Positions 57,394 through 64,000 of a stretch of 64,000 nt of DNA are shown here, piece by piece. The stretch covers positions 37,582-101,581 of the forward strand of contig JAHDEL010000005.1 in assembly GCA_020628855.1 (NCBI GenBank). Direction: 5' to 3'. The translations under genes and the position numbers were made by a program. The notes beneath the pieces were generated by a model. That model was not told where the DNA came from. It searched no databases and saw only the letters and a list, made by a program, of their open reading frames with translations. This DNA is from Saprospiraceae bacterium. GTDB taxonomy: Bacteria; Bacteroidota; Bacteroidia; Chitinophagales; Saprospiraceae. The stretch's first letter is position 1, and each line of letters begins with the position of its first letter.

Positions 57394-60363
57394 TTAATAT
57401 CTTTCATCACTGACGTAGGGAAGTTTCTGCATGCGAATTACTTCCATGCTTGGAAAGTCGAAGTCTAGGACGATCTTACCTGTGATGAGGTAGACTCCTT
57501 TTCCCCGAAAGGGGTATCGTGCTAGACTTGGTGGAAAGTGAGTAGAGTCGAAGAAGTGTCCTGCTTCATCGAGCCAAGTTCCGAAATTCATCAACTTTTT
57601 ATTGACTGTTGTTACATTCTTACGTGCTACATAGTAACCGACCATATTGACGACTTGCTGAGCATGTGCTTTCATCTGATTAGCAGAGATGTGTTTGGGC
57701 AGTTTTTCCTTAACAAGAGCAAAAGGTGAGCAGAGTGGGAAGCCTAGTAACTCTATTTCGTCGAAGGCTTGTTCATGAGGACCTTCAGCAAGTATTGGCA
57801 GTTCGTAGTGGGTACTTTCTGAATCGAAGAGTCTGCCGACGGCTGCTTGCTGCTTAACCATAGGGTTGTGGACAGCATTCTTTTCCCACATGAGCTCGTA
57901 TTTGTTCTGTCCGGTGAATCGAAATGCTCCAATTCTGATGAGAATCTCTAGTTGTTCGCGCGAGATATCTACTCTAGTGACAAACTCATCAAGGCTTTGG
58001 TACGCTCCATTGTCTAGTCTTTCTTGAATGATAGTCTTTGCGACCTTTCTTTCTAGTTCTGAAATATGTACGAAGCCGATATAGATTGTGGTATCATAAA
58101 TATTGGTCAGATAGGTGCTGTGATTGACGCAGGGTGCTTCGATGTTTGCCCCTGACATCCTTGCTTCATGGACATAGAGTTCGGTATTGTAGAAGCCGCC
58201 GAAATTGTTGATAACTGCCACCATAAACTCGAGTGGGTAGTAGGTCTTGAGGTAGAGACTTTGAAAGGACTCTACGGCGAAGCTTGCCGAGTGGGCTTTG
58301 CAAAAGGAATAGCCGCTAAAACTAGCTACTTGCCTCCATACCTCATTAGCAAGTTCGTCCGGATAACCTCTTGCCTTACAGTTGACGAAGTATTTATCTC
58401 TGAGTTTTTTGAAAGTGTCGGAGGTTTTCTTCTTGCCAGTCATGATTCTCCTCAGCACATCTGACTCATCGAGCTCAAGTCCTGCGAAATGGTGTACTAT
58501 CTTCATCACATCTTCTTGGTAGACCATGACTCCGAATGTCTCTCCAAGGTGTTGTTCGAAGATAGGGTGGATGTAGGTGAAAGACTCGGGGTGGTGGTAG
58601 CGATGAATATATTCTCGCATCATCCCTGATTTGGAGACTCCTGGTCGAATGATCGAACTCGCGGCGACAAGGTGTACGTAGTTGTCACAGCCCAGTTTTG
58701 TAAGGAGCCCACGCATTGCTGGTGACTCGATGTAGAAGCATCCTATACAGTACCCAGCTTTGAGCCTTGCTTTGACATTGAGGTCTTCTTTTATCTCTGC
58801 CACATTATGGATGTCGACAGCCTTTCCTTGATTTCTGGCTACAAGATTGACAGCTTCTTTGATATGTCCCAGACCTCTTTGGCTCAAGATGTCGTATTTA
58901 TGAAACTCTAGATCTTCGGCACCATACATATCGAAGTGTACTATGGGAAACCCCTTTGGCATGAGCTGTAGTGCTGTGTGGTAATTGAGTGGTCTTTCAC
59001 TGATTAGAATGCCACCAGCATGGATGCTTAGATAATTGGGGAATCCTTCGATGAGCTTGCCATATTTAAAGATGTGCTTAGCGTAAGGGTGATGTTTGTC
59101 GGTGGCGTGCGGCTCATGGACAATTGTATCGATATCGTTTTTTGGTAAACCAAGTACCTTACCCAGCTCTCTAATGATAGACTTACCCTTAAACGTATTA
59201 TAGGTGGCGAGCAAGGCAGTGTGGTCTCTACCATATCGCTTAAAAATATAATCAGTCACATCATCTCGCTCATCCCATGAAAAGTCAATGTCAAAATCAG
59301 GCGGTGAACTTCTGTGCGGGTTGATAAATCGTTCGAAGTAGAGATCCAACTCGAGTGGATCAACATCAGTAATATAGAGATTATAAGCAACAATAGAATT
59401 GGCTCCACTACCTCTACCTACATGATGATAACCTGCAGTGTGAGCATAGCGAATGATATCCCAGGTGATGAGAAAATAAGGTGAGTATCCGAGCTTGGCA
59501 ATTACTTTTAGCTCAGCTAGAGTTCGATCCATTGCTTTTTTGTTTCGCTGTCCATAGCGACGGATACAACCATTAATTGCTAACTTATTGAGCAAAGTCA
59601 TATCTCCTTGTTTGCTTCCGGTGAATGTCTTTCTATTATTACTTTTTGCGGAAGACATCTCGAAAGTGCAAGACTCTAAGAGGGTGTTAGTATTGTCAAC
59701 AATCTGAGGATATTGCTGAAATATCTTTTGTATTTCGTCAGGCGAATAACAGTACTCTGAAGCATTGGCACAATAGTTATTTTCTAGTTTGCCAAGGACA
59801 GTATTCAGGTCTATACACCGCAATAACTTATGTGTCTTGTAGCCATCCTGATCGGCAAATGTAATTGGTGCAAAGACAACCAACTTGTCTAAAAAATTCT
59901 TCAGGTATGAGGTGTAGAGCTTGTTGACTTCTGTGGGTCTGACACCAATAAACTCATGATCACGTAGATGCTTTATTCCTTTTGGTATAGATCGATAGAT
60001 GATATAAGTATGCTCCAATGGTGGAGCTTCGACAGGCAGCAATTCTTTGTTTAATGATGCTGAGGTAAGTAGACCATTCAGCTCGCGAATGCCTTCTGCA
60101 TTCTTTGCTATGCCTGTGTAGAGATATTGACTATGGTCAATTTTAGAACTTGTGGGATCTTGGAATTGCCGAAACTCAACTCCATATATAGGAGTTACTC
60201 CGAGTTTGGTACATGCTTGATAGAATGCATAACTACATGATGTATTATTGATGTCAGTGAGGGCAAGACGACGAATACCCTTAGACACTGCTAACGCTAC
60301 CAGTTGTTCGGGCGATAGAGTGCCATACTTTAGTGAGTAGTAAGAGTGACAAGCTAAGTGCAT
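57394..60363 (-). CDS. dnaE: DNA polymerase III alpha subunit, short (995-aa class) DnaE
   Basis: 989 residues from the ATG at 60363; the in-frame Met at 60381 would precede the conserved start HLACHSYYSL. The PHP domain is at the N terminus, but the second metal motif reads ALTDINN instead of ALTDHGN, so a metal ligand is lost. The polymerase core has PDFDIDF and KYDILSQRGL (three catalytic Asp), followed by HhH and OB regions. The C-terminal tau-binding domain of replicative DnaE is missing. Such short DnaEs in Bacteroidota are often damage-inducible and sit with a Y-family polymerase; none is present here. A TATTTTTG box lies just upstream. Confidence 0.93.
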   Translation of the reverse strand: MHLACHSYYSLKYGTLSPEQLVALAVSKGIRRLALTDINNTSCSYAFYQACTKLGVTPIYGVEFRQFQDPTSSKIDHSQYLYTGIAKNAEGIRELNGLLTSASLNKELLPVEAPPLEHTYIIYRSIPKGIKHLRDHEFIGVRPTEVNKLYTSYLKNFLDKLVVFAPITFADQDGYKTHKLLRCIDLNTVLGKLENNYCANASEYCYSPDEIQKIFQQYPQIVDNTNTLLESCTFEMSSAKSNNRKTFTGSKQGDMTLLNKLAINGCIRRYGQRNKKAMDRTLAELKVIAKLGYSPYFLITWDIIRYAHTAGYHHVGRGSGANSIVAYNLYITDVDPLELDLYFERFINPHRSSPPDFDIDFSWDERDDVTDYIFKRYGRDHTALLATYNTFKGKSIIRELGKVLGLPKNDIDTIVHEPHATDKHHPYAKHIFKYGKLIEGFPNYLSIHAGGILISERPLNYHTALQLMPKGFPIVHFDMYGAEDLEFHKYDILSQRGLGHIKEAVNLVARNQGKAVDIHNVAEIKEDLNVKARLKAGYCIGCFYIESPAMRGLLTKLGCDNYVHLVAASSIIRPGVSKSGMMREYIHRYHHPESFTYIHPIFEQHLGETFGVMVYQEDVMKIVHHFAGLELDESDVLRRIMTGKKKTSDTFKKLRDKYFVNCKARGYPDELANEVWRQVASFSGYSFCKAHSASFAVESFQSLYLKTYYPLEFMVAVINNFGGFYNTELYVHEARMSGANIEAPCVNHSTYLTNIYDTTIYIGFVHISELERKVAKTIIQERLDNGAYQSLDEFVTRVDISREQLEILIRIGAFRFTGQNKYELMWEKNAVHNPMVKQQAAVGRLFDSESTHYELPILAEGPHEQAFDEIELLGFPLCSPFALVKEKLPKHISANQMKAHAQQVVNMVGYYVARKNVTTVNKKLMNFGTWLDEAGHFFDSTHFPPSLARYPFRGKGVYLITGKIVLDFDFPSMEVIRMQKLPYVSDERY

Positions 60364-60378
60364 AGACGAATAATACAA

Positions 60379-60386
60379 CAAAAATA
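60379..60386 (-). promoter_or_regulatory. possible -7 box for the short dnaE gene
   Basis: Minus-strand TATTTTTG matches TAnnTTTG, 15 bases before the ATG at 60363. It would give a very short leader and argues against the start at 60381. No -33 element was seen. Confidence 0.35.
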
Positions 60387-60434
60387 TGCTGAAAAAATCG
60401 ACATAACATAAAAATGCTCTTTTTTTTGTTGAAT

Positions 60435-60468
60435 TTTGTGCACTATATTGATAAACACCTTACTTTTG
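60435..60468 (+). promoter_or_regulatory. Bacteroidota promoter of the MerC-HupE-kinase operon
   Basis: TTTG (60435-60438) and TACTTTTG (60461-60468), 22 bases apart, match the -33 and -7 consensus. Transcription would begin near 60475, just before the ATG at 60490, which supports that start over an earlier in-frame ATG at 60436. Confidence 0.6.
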
Positions 60469-60489
60469 AAACACTGTTGCAAAAAGTTA

Positions 60490-60861
60490 ATGTTTACAAG
60501 AATTAGGAAAGACATCATCGGGTTATCGGCTTCGCTACTGTGCTCAGTGCACTGCATGGCTCTACCCGTTATGCTGATATGGTTTGGCGTTGATACGAAC
60601 ATGATGCACAATCATATTTTTGATATGATTTTCTTAGTAATAGGAATAATCTTTATTGCTACTTCTATAGTACCTAGCATTAAGAAGACAGGACATGTTG
60701 GACTAATCTTACTTACTGCCGTAGGCTTTCTCAGTTTTATCACATCATTCTTCTTAGCTTCTGCAGCAGCTCATATTGCTTTTGCAATAGGTGGATTAGC
60801 ATGGGCTACTGCGCACTTCATCAATATCGCTTTGCATAAGAAAGCAATTCCTGTAGTATAA
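60490..60861 (+). CDS. MerC domain-containing membrane protein
   Basis: 123 residues from the ATG at 60490. Four membrane helices and the MerC Cys pair in helix 1 (LLCSVHCMALP) identify the family, whose founders import mercuric ions. A second MerC pair in the cytosol is not seen, and chromosomal members in Bacteroidota usually lack other mer genes, so the ion is unknown. The gene leads a run of four with gaps or overlaps of a few bases: HupE/UreJ-like, histidine kinase and LytTR regulator. An alternative start at 60436 lies inside the promoter. Confidence 0.85.
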   Translation: MFTRIRKDIIGLSASLLCSVHCMALPVMLIWFGVDTNMMHNHIFDMIFLVIGIIFIATSIVPSIKKTGHVGLILLTAVGFLSFITSFFLASAAAHIAFAIGGLAWATAHFINIALHKKAIPVV

Positions 60862-60863
60862 TT

Positions 60864-61430
60864 ATGGATCTCCTCTGGCTATGGATCAAGCAAGGTATTG
60901 GTCATATTATGGATATTGAAGCCTATGACCATCTACTCTACATACTTGCACTAGCCTTACCATTTCTACATAAGAAACTCAAACCACTTATCATCCATAT
61001 CACGGCTTTTACGATAGGCCATAGCTCAGCATTGGTGATTGCTGCCTTAGGTAACACCCCAGTGACACAGCAGTGGGTAGAAATAGGTATTCTATCCTCA
61101 ATAATTATAACATGTATAGCCAATATTGCTATTCCTAACCAGCAAACAAAGCGCTTGACTTACTTAGTGACACTCATCATTGGGTTAATTCATGGTCTTG
61201 GTTTTGGCAACTACTTCAGAGCAATGCATGGTGGATTTAACTCAGAGTTTTTCATAAGCTTAGCAGGGTTTAATATAGGTGTGGAAATAGCACAACTCAT
61301 TATAGTGTTGATTGCGTATCTATTAGTTCAGTGGTTAGAAAAAGCAGCTGTCGTTGACAATAAAAGATTTATCAGAACTTCGAGCGTTATACTAATGTGC
61401 ATCGCATCTTGGTTATTGTATAAATTGTGA
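60864..61430 (+). CDS. HupE/UreJ family membrane protein
   Basis: 188 residues with six to seven membrane helices. The family signature is the N-terminal GIGHIMDIEAYDHLLYILAL with His and Asp in helix 1, HITAFTIGHSSALV in the next, and GLIHGLGFG near the fifth helix. HupE/UreJ proteins are thought to carry nickel or cobalt for hydrogenase or urease, but neither enzyme is encoded here, so the substrate is open. It starts 2 bases after the MerC gene and overlaps the kinase gene by 4 bases (GTGA). Confidence 0.88.
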   Translation: MDLLWLWIKQGIGHIMDIEAYDHLLYILALALPFLHKKLKPLIIHITAFTIGHSSALVIAALGNTPVTQQWVEIGILSSIIITCIANIAIPNQQTKRLTYLVTLIIGLIHGLGFGNYFRAMHGGFNSEFFISLAGFNIGVEIAQLIIVLIAYLLVQWLEKAAVVDNKRFIRTSSVILMCIASWLLYKL

Positions 61431-63379
61431 TCATCGCTTTGAGAGCTGCACTCATTTTATTCTTATTGATTACGAATGCATACCGGGTCTATTCTCAGGA
61501 ATGTAAACTGCTTGTTGCCAAGTCATCACTGCGGGCTGCCGTAATGGATCAGTCCCAATGCATTTGGTATCTAGATGCTGCAGGAAGATTATATAAGCAT
61601 AACAGCATCCTTGAGCATACAATAGAAGGAATTCCTAAAATGCAACAATTGCTGCATGCAAATGGTGATCTCATTGTGCATGATGGTCAGGAAATTTTTC
61701 AAATTATTGGTGATGATATAGAAAGCATAGTCAAATTTTCACAAGCTCCAATACAAGCCATATTTGCAAGAAATGCACAGGATATAATAATTCTTGGCAA
61801 CCATAAACTCTATCATTACTACAAGGGTAACCTTGACCAATGTAGCCAACAGATTAACTCTAATCAGTTCAACAGTCATTTGCCTACAAAGGCATATCCA
61901 TTTTTAGACCAATGGTATCTACTATCTGGAGGAAAAGTGAGTAGAATATGTGGAAGTCAACCCAGGTCAATTGTGTCAACGGAAGTATTTCTTGATCTAG
62001 AAAGCTATCAAGGAGAACTGTATCTTTTGAGTGAGAATGAAGGTCCATTCATTGTCGAAGGTCAATCAGTAAGACCATTGACCTCTCATCACACAGCCTT
62101 TCCATATGCACAATACCTTAGGGTTGCTGACCAAGGACTCCTACTCTTTGATCCTTATTCTTTGCAAGTTGTTAAACACAATGACACCATAGTTCATCAA
62201 TTACGCACTTCTGAAGAATTAGAACCGGTACAACTCATAGATAATAGTATTCTTGCACTCAATACCTCAGGTGTCTCACTATGCAAGTTTGATACTCAGG
62301 CAGATGTAGCGATGACACAGTTAGTTAGGCTGAATATAGGAGAAGCCTCATTACTTGAAAAGTCAACATTTTTACTTGATGAACCCAAAGTGCTAGAGGC
62401 AGAATTAACAAGTACTTATTGGGGAGATGGAGAAAAACCTAAATACTTTTATCGGGCTCCTCCCAAATATGATACTTGGCAACCTTGGGATATTATTCAG
62501 CCTCTTAGCCTGCAAATAGATCAGGATATCAAGTCTTTTGAATTACAGAAAATACACAAAGCGAAAGCTGAAAAGTTACTTTCTAAAACAATTACCTTCC
62601 AGCACTCTACAAAATCTACTCACCTGCCTTGGCTGATTATTCTTGGATTGTTGAGTCTTTTGGGCATAGTACTCTTTACATCTGTTAGAAGATATCGCAA
62701 AGCCCAAGAGTCTCATCGAGAAAAGATTGCAGCGATTACCTTGCAAAAACAATACACTGAGGAGCAACTCAAATCATTACAACTTCAGATGAATCCACAT
62801 TTTATTTTTAATGTGTTGAATTCAATCCAGGGTCTCATTGCGCTTGGAGACAATCAAAAAGCACGTCAGAGCCTCAATAGCTTTTCTCAACTACTCAGGA
62901 CTATGCTTAATCAATCATCTGAAATGGTAACTAGCCTGAAAGATGAACTTAGCTTACTAGAAAAATATCTCCAACTCGAGCAACTCTGTAGACCAGACAA
63001 GTTTACTCACTCAATAGACACCCATCAGTCACTTGACCTCCATCATACAATACCAAGTATGATAATCCAACCATTCCTGGAAAATGCGATAGTGCATGGT
63101 ATCAGATGGAAAGAATCAAAAGGGCAAATAACTTTAAATATTGTCCCAGATGAGGCAGGTGTCAAATGTATTATTGAAGATGACGGTGTGGGCAGGGTAT
63201 TTGCCGAAAGGCAGGCTAAGTCTGCACATAAATCCATCGGACTCTCTATTGTAGAGAAGCGCTTGAAGAAGTACTTTAGATTTAATAAAACGATAGACCC
63301 GATTCTTTTCGAAGACTTATATGATACTGACGGTCGTGCTAAAGGAACTCGAGTTACCGTTATAATTCCAATACTATGA
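61427..63379 (+). CDS. LytS-type sensor histidine kinase with extracytoplasmic propeller-like sensor
   Basis: 650 residues from a GTG overlapping the HupE stop. A signal/anchor helix (1-20) precedes about 340 residues with beta-propeller-like rhythm (DQSQCIWYLDAAGRLYKHN, ILGNHKLYHYYKGN, QLIDNSILALNTSG), then a Y_Y_Y-like segment (EAELTSTYWGDGEKPKYFYRAP) and one membrane helix (about 399-418). A coiled coil leads into the His_kinase domain with phospho-acceptor H458 in MNPHFIFNVLNSIQG and the N box FLENAIVHGI. An ATPase G box GVGRVF follows. It is the partner of the response regulator that overlaps by 4 bases. The sensor domain appears unlike the closest PAS or 7TMR types. Confidence 0.93.
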   Translation: MIIALRAALILFLLITNAYRVYSQECKLLVAKSSLRAAVMDQSQCIWYLDAAGRLYKHNSILEHTIEGIPKMQQLLHANGDLIVHDGQEIFQIIGDDIESIVKFSQAPIQAIFARNAQDIIILGNHKLYHYYKGNLDQCSQQINSNQFNSHLPTKAYPFLDQWYLLSGGKVSRICGSQPRSIVSTEVFLDLESYQGELYLLSENEGPFIVEGQSVRPLTSHHTAFPYAQYLRVADQGLLLFDPYSLQVVKHNDTIVHQLRTSEELEPVQLIDNSILALNTSGVSLCKFDTQADVAMTQLVRLNIGEASLLEKSTFLLDEPKVLEAELTSTYWGDGEKPKYFYRAPPKYDTWQPWDIIQPLSLQIDQDIKSFELQKIHKAKAEKLLSKTITFQHSTKSTHLPWLIILGLLSLLGIVLFTSVRRYRKAQESHREKIAAITLQKQYTEEQLKSLQLQMNPHFIFNVLNSIQGLIALGDNQKARQSLNSFSQLLRTMLNQSSEMVTSLKDELSLLEKYLQLEQLCRPDKFTHSIDTHQSLDLHHTIPSMIIQPFLENAIVHGIRWKESKGQITLNIVPDEAGVKCIIEDDGVGRVFAERQAKSAHKSIGLSIVEKRLKKYFRFNKTIDPILFEDLYDTDGRAKGTRVTVIIPIL

Positions 63380-64000
63380 AAGCAGTAATTATTGATGATA
63401 ATCCATTGGCTATTGCCACATTAAAGGCCGACATAACAACCTATTGCCAAGATGTAGAGCTAGTAGGTGAGGCAGAAGGGGTATTGGAAGCGGCAAAACT
63501 ATTGAATCAGGTCAAAGCTGAGCTTTTATTCTTGGATATCCATATGAATAATGGGACTGGATTTGACCTTTTGGATATCGTTGAAAAATCACGATACAAA
63601 GTCATTTTCACAACAGCTAGCGAAGATTTCGCTTTGAAGGCCTTCGAATATGCGGCTGTCGATTATTTGCTTAAGCCAATAGACCCTGAAAGATTACAAG
63701 AAGCTGTTGGCAAATCCTTGGAGCTTGGAAAACTTTCCGACGAGCAGATAAGTATAATGAAGTCAACTTCCCAATCTAAACTAGCCCTAAGTACGACAGA
63801 AGAAATTAGAATTGTTGGTATCGAACAAATATTAAGGCTCGAGTCTAGCAACAATTACACTACGTTTTATCTAGATGATGGTGAAAAAATTCTTGTTTCA
63901 AAAACAATGAAAGAATATGACTTCTTGACTCAGATGCATTTCATGAGAGTGCATCAATCGCATATAATTAATATGAATAAGGTCAAATCTTTTGTTAGGA
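63376..64000 (+). CDS. LytTR family response regulator (3' truncated by window end)
   Basis: 208 residues are visible and the frame is open at the window edge. The receiver domain begins MKAVIIDDNPLA, with phospho-acceptor D54 in LLFLDIHMNNG, the switch Thr in FTTAS and the Lys in YLLKPID. After a linker the LytTR DNA-binding domain begins (about 140 onward): IRIVGIEQILRLESSNNYTTFYL, then FMRVHQSHIINMNKV, typical of the family. It overlaps the kinase stop by 4 bases (ATGA). Targets are unknown; the adjoining MerC/HupE genes or genes beyond the window are candidates. Confidence 0.95.
   Translation, partial: MKAVIIDDNPLAIATLKADITTYCQDVELVGEAEGVLEAAKLLNQVKAELLFLDIHMNNGTGFDLLDIVEKSRYKVIFTTASEDFALKAFEYAAVDYLLKPIDPERLQEAVGKSLELGKLSDEQISIMKSTSQSKLALSTTEEIRIVGIEQILRLESSNNYTTFYLDDGEKILVSKTMKEYDFLTQMHFMRVHQSHIINMNKVKSFVR

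Follow-up and report, generated by a model that had tools for sequence, protein, structure and literature searches.

The four plus-strand genes at the end of the analyzed window (the whole 64,000-nucleotide stretch of DNA, G000:C41:37582-101581) probably constitute a metal-starvation operon controlled by a Fur-family, likely Zur-type, repressor, and the sensor kinase and response regulator encoded in it would be made only under starvation. The assignment follows from a palindromic operator, consensus TTGCAACAnTGTTGCAA, which is found upstream of MerC genes (50/54 loci) as well as upstream of genes for Fur-family regulators, ZnuD-like receptors, and DUF4625 proteins.

Operon organization and gene content

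The first gene (60490..60861) encodes a 123-aa membrane protein of the MerC family (PF03203, 41.9 bits, cut-off 27.6) with a C18-x-x-H21-C22 motif. It is followed by genes for a 188-aa HupE_UreJ_2-family membrane protein (60864..61430; PF13795, 131 bits, cut-off 24.5), in which the motifs DH, IGH, IHGLGF, and GVE are retained, a 650-aa LytS-type sensor kinase (61427..63379; PF06580, 81 bits), and a LytTR response regulator (63376..64000; Response_reg plus LytTR) that is cut by the window end. On the contig, the complete regulator comprises 239 aa and ends at the window-equivalent position 64095, 95 bases beyond the window (L002:6958-7677), where it directly abuts a convergent comF-like gene; the operon therefore consists of exactly four genes. 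MerC and HupE are separated by a gap of 2 bases, and the HupE/kinase and kinase/regulator frames overlap by 4 bases each, the GTG start codon of the kinase lying within the HupE stop. Because of these overlaps, the kinase/regulator pair is expected to be co-expressed with the membrane proteins. The tight packing of four genes described in the initial annotation is thus borne out, with all genes on the same strand and a Pfam match for each. The start of MerC is most likely the ATG at 60490 and not a TTG near 60436, which lies upstream of the -7 box.

A search of the genome identified this MerC as the only copy, and it returned one more HupE as well as six LytS-type kinases besides that of the operon. 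Among the genes flanking the operon, we found no mer, urease, or hydrogenase genes, as had been noted initially, and no further metal-specific genes. The divergent 5' neighbor (57394-60381, minus strand) encodes a 995-aa DnaE-type polymerase III alpha protein with a PHP domain, which is below the housekeeping DnaE in length.

Promoter and operator

The operon is preceded by a Bacteroidota-type promoter (60434..60468, plus strand) composed of a -33-like TTTTG (60434-60438), a 22-bp spacer, and the -7 box TACTTTTG (60461-60468), which is conserved throughout the genus (four genomes). The type of promoter and the protein families point to a Bacteroidota origin of the DNA. The predicted Fur-family (Zur-like) operator, the palindrome TTGAAACACTGTTGCAA (60466..60482), overlaps the -7 box and the presumed transcription start. 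Overlap with the -7 box is a classical position for a repressor. Alignment of the four upstream regions of the genus revealed a single conserved block, TAC(T/A)TTTGnAACAnTGTTnCA, that is, the -7 box fused to the operator. As this block is the only upstream conservation among the four genomes, the promoter noted earlier can be regarded as real. No conserved LytTR-type paired repeats, or any second site for the regulator, were seen at the operon promoter.

The consensus TTGCAACAnTGTTGCAA was scored in the 250 bp upstream and the 250 bp downstream of MerC with a threshold of at least 13 of 16 matches. It was present upstream at 50 of the 54 loci and in none of the 54 downstream controls; these loci represent related genomes from several families of the order and are not fully independent. 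One of the three lowest-scoring loci is that of genome G227, where MerC lies 3' of a COG0523 GTPase gene and the operator is located ~0.5 kb upstream, at the GTPase gene of a COG0523 GTPase-MerC-ABC cluster. Within the window, one operator match was observed vs. 0.09 expected. The whole genome contains 40 sites with up to three mismatches, compared to 4 for the reversed pattern used as a control, and its two best sites, each with one mismatch, precede the four-gene operon and a Fur/TonB receptor/DUF4625 cluster. Across 119 genomes of the order, sites precede genes for MerC, Fur, Sco1, related TonB receptors, and DUF4625 proteins. Hence the palindrome is, like a Zur operator, situated at the promoter and common to metal-uptake genes. 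The same operator marks a regulon of these five kinds of genes over many genera of the order (e.g., L012-L041 and L220-L265).

A second metal cluster with two operator copies is present on contig 51 of the same genome (L218:4051-8111; G000:C51:111050-115110). It encodes a ZnuD/heme-like TonB receptor, a small Fur-family protein, a DUF4625 lipoprotein with the motif CHGHGGG, and a His-rich lipoprotein of 144 aa. The two best models for the TonB receptor are a heme receptor and ZnuD; both matches are far below their cut-offs and well above that of the copper-receptor model. No gene for MbnP or Sco1 turned up next to the four-gene operon or the contig-51 cluster. The Fur homolog encoded on contig 29 of this genome is 47% identical to the MerC-linked Fur of genome G416. 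Its best match among solved structures is the zinc uptake regulator FurB (E 1e-4), with PerR close behind as the second PDB match, and its NCBIfam assignment is ambiguous.

Conservation of the MerC-HupE module

The other three genomes of the genus (G431, G382, and G307) keep the MerC-HupE-kinase-regulator order, which makes 4/4 with the genome studied here. Within the genus, the kinases are 38-40% identical and the regulators 66-70%. In G307, a 223-aa frame without a known family is inserted between the kinase and regulator genes (L137:3608-4279). Beyond the genus, a compilation from gene coordinates and loci placed MerC next to HupE, or almost so, in another nine genera of this family, often in the arrangement Fur-MerC-HupE with DUF6702 and/or MbnP; the order Fur-MerC-HupE-MbnP occurs in three genera of the family, and Fur adjoins MerC in 26 of 30 loci. 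The core in the relatives is Fur-MerC-HupE-MbnP. At the level of this module, the common operator and the Fur/MerC/HupE/MbnP neighborhoods support the suggestion of a metal-uptake system, and from them the membrane proteins are predicted to act in metal acquisition.

In the HupE tree, the MerC-linked proteins do not form one clade, which indicates that the adjacency was gained or lost several times, and the HupE of the operon's genus forms a fast-evolving branch. A scan of named genomes for HupE returned one distant match, from Tenacibaculum (43%). In genus g6, HupE is located beside a large 2-oxoglutarate dehydrogenase E1-like gene (read by eye), and the distance to MerC is 1.7-2.2 kb (L072:2397-5821; L073:9836-13138). 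In genome G359, Fur-MerC-HupE-MbnP is directly followed by a LytTR-type regulator and a propeller kinase that is distinct from that of the operon and longer (770 aa; L189:1309-6903). In G235, MerC is immediately preceded by a short LytS kinase and a LytTR regulator, and the operator separates the regulator from MerC (L151:7609-9928); this arrangement was rejected as an instance of the same linkage, since the kinase is not orthologous and is upstream of the operator.

Domain structure and origin of the sensor kinase

The kinase comprises a signal peptide, a degenerate propeller, a Y_Y_Y-type domain (residues about 320-395), one transmembrane segment (about 400-420), a PF06580 His_kinase domain with the phospho-acceptor H458 (MNPHF), and an ATPase domain, and it is paired with a receiver-LytTR regulator as in other LytS/LytTR systems. 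The propeller and the Y_Y_Y domain preceding the transmembrane segment were recognized through orthologs. A profile of 25 members aligned with Reg_prop/Y_Y_Y kinases over 214 columns that include Y_Y_Y (prob 98.9, E 2e-17), a second profile alignment covered the N-terminal blades (92.0), and Pfam matched Y_Y_Y directly in two orthologs, G087 and G304; in the operon kinase itself, neither domain gave a direct Pfam match. These alignments show the kinase to be a short, degenerate form of the ordinary propeller/Y_Y_Y/LytS architecture of Bacteroidota. The large exported region that the initial annotation considered unusual is accordingly a decayed propeller plus a Y_Y_Y domain, which are common in the phylum. 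A PDB profile search with four kinases returned matches to the kinase core only, and the AlphaFold2 model from the single sequence (pLDDT 37.5) was unusable. The only invariant His or Cys residues of the sensor across the genus are H58, C139, and C175, a pattern that does not suggest a metal site.

In a tree of 38 kinase cores, the operon kinase belongs to a 26-member group from eleven genera (support 100/98) that is set apart from most long Reg_prop kinases. Its genus is sister to genus g31 (94/96), whose kinase pair is located elsewhere in the genome, beside a TetR regulator-like gene (read by eye). Seventeen of the 26 orthologs lie apart from MerC-HupE together with their regulator, and no operator was found at these free-standing kinases (best match 11/16). 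The kinase/regulator pair thus most likely derives from a widespread free-standing pair, in line with the earlier alternative that two modules had been fused. The free-standing orthologs often adjoin an exported SH3-like gene (L138-L141, L144, L148-L150, and L199; SH3_3 tested in L148 only).

The kinase is found at MerC-HupE in all four genomes of the operon's genus and in all four of genus g139, where it directly follows MerC-HupE in three genomes, is separated from it by one opposite-strand gene in G338, and lacks a regulator beside it. In genus g160, it is 2 kb from MerC-HupE in one of three genomes (G416). By a rough estimate made by hand, assuming ~3,500 genes per genome, the odds of landing within a few genes of MerC-HupE are near 1 in 1,000 per lineage. 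The association in two or three of eleven genera, whether it reflects one old linkage or several, is therefore far beyond chance. A BNR-repeat gene adjoins the kinase pair in g160 and the MerC module in g172, a hint of a single ancestral cluster. As a conserved unit, the proposed set of four genes holds within the genus, and in g139 MerC-HupE is joined by the kinase alone; the regular separation of the kinase/regulator pair from MerC/HupE, which had been expected to speak against such a unit, is observed outside these two genera.

Proposed regulation and alternative explanations

As long as there is enough of the metal, which is most likely zinc, the metal-loaded repressor would occupy TTGAAACACTGTTGCAA and cover the -7 box and start site, and when the metal is scarce, the operon would be transcribed. 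The MerC-like and HupE-like proteins would then help in the transport or handling of the metal at the inner membrane, as a step downstream of the ZnuD-like TonB receptor and the DUF4625 lipoproteins, whose genes have this operator at other places in the genome. The pair of kinase and regulator, inherited from a free-standing ancestor, would now be produced only when the metal is scarce; the exported propeller probably responds to an external signal (a ligand or the state of the envelope), and the LytTR regulator may act on targets in trans. The pair might further recognize an external metal source, such as a metallophore, a metal-protein, or a glycan, and direct its uptake once the Fur-type repressor has freed it, but we consider such a two-tier circuit rather unlikely.

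A possible, though clearly less favored, explanation is that the pair has an unrelated job, e.g., cell-envelope sensing, and merely came to share the MerC-HupE transcript through a rearrangement that took place in the genus ancestor. The 17 separate orthologs, which lack the operator and are often next to the exported SH3-domain gene, would fit this explanation, as would the scarcity of conserved potential metal ligands in the sensor. It accounts less well for the presence of the kinase at MerC-HupE in two complete genera and near it in a third, for the overlapping frames that couple translation in the genus, and for the different propeller pair that follows Fur-MerC-HupE-MbnP in G359. We consider it far less probable still that the kinase itself binds a metal (Ni, Co, Cu, or Hg) and the operon is regulated by its own LytTR regulator. 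Kinase and regulator do share an operon with transport-type proteins, and the HupE of Rhizobium is a nickel transporter according to the title of a reference cited in PMC12183173. However, the -7 box/operator is the only conserved upstream block, paired LytTR repeats were not seen there, invariant metal ligands in the sensor are few, and mer, urease, and hydrogenase genes are absent beside the operon. Metal sensing, which the initial annotation assigned to the system as a whole, is thus more likely performed by the Fur-family repressor, whose site accounts for it, than by the kinase, in which nothing points to metal binding.

Zinc is our first guess for the metal because FurB is the best solved match of the Fur homolog, and copper is still conceivable because of the Sco1 and MbnP neighbors. 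A copper-starvation regulon of MerC-HupE, Sco1, and MbnP would explain why Sco1 lies between MerC and Fur in most loci of the order, the operator being located between MerC and Sco1, and why MbnP follows HupE in several genera. We nevertheless regard it as improbable, considering the preference of the TonB receptor for heme and ZnuD models over the copper-receptor model, the operator-bearing COG0523 GTPase-MerC-ABC cluster of G227, the zinc regulator matched by the Fur homolog, and the absence of MbnP and Sco1 from both clusters of this genome. Either zinc or copper is likelier than nickel, cobalt, or mercury, which had been considered initially.

Relation to known systems

Each part of the operon belongs to a known kind, and the literature search returned no description of MerC with LytTR, MerC with MbnP, or the four-gene arrangement. 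The predicted regulon resembles Zur regulons in its short palindromic operator over the promoter, Fur homolog, TonB receptor, and, in a relative, COG0523 gene; it differs in that the operon includes a two-component pair and that its Zur assignment is a prediction from sequence. Neither TTGCAACAnTGTTGCAA nor any mention of Bacteroidetes occurs in the review of Zur regulons PMC6103462, and the operator may still be recorded elsewhere, e.g., in predicted-regulon databases. With Bacteroidota LytS/LytTR systems of the Reg_prop and Y_Y_Y type, the pair shares the propeller, Y_Y_Y domain, single transmembrane segment, PF06580 His_kinase, and paired LytTR regulator, whereas the operon kinase has a degenerate sensor of about 390 residues without a Reg_prop Pfam match and is linked to MerC-HupE. 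Like the MerC of mercury-resistance operons, the protein is a member of PF03203 with a Cys pair near the first transmembrane segment; in contrast to those operons, no other mer genes were found among the flanking genes, and the operator and neighbors indicate starvation rather than mercury. HupE retains the family motifs of the HupE/UreJ nickel/cobalt permeases (PF13795 branch), but it has no adjacent hydrogenase or urease, is accompanied by MerC, and belongs to a fast-evolving branch. The names MerC and HupE, with their reference to mercury and nickel, mislead annotators in this group, in which the genes around MerC resemble loci for zinc or copper acquisition.

The literature searched has little on how Bacteroidota control their response to metal starvation, and the operator makes a metal regulon directly accessible throughout the order. 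If the two-tier circuit proves true, a Fur-family repressor would command a two-component system encoded in the very uptake operon that it controls. The arrangement suggests that a repressor in the cytoplasm and a sensor facing outward can be connected in series.
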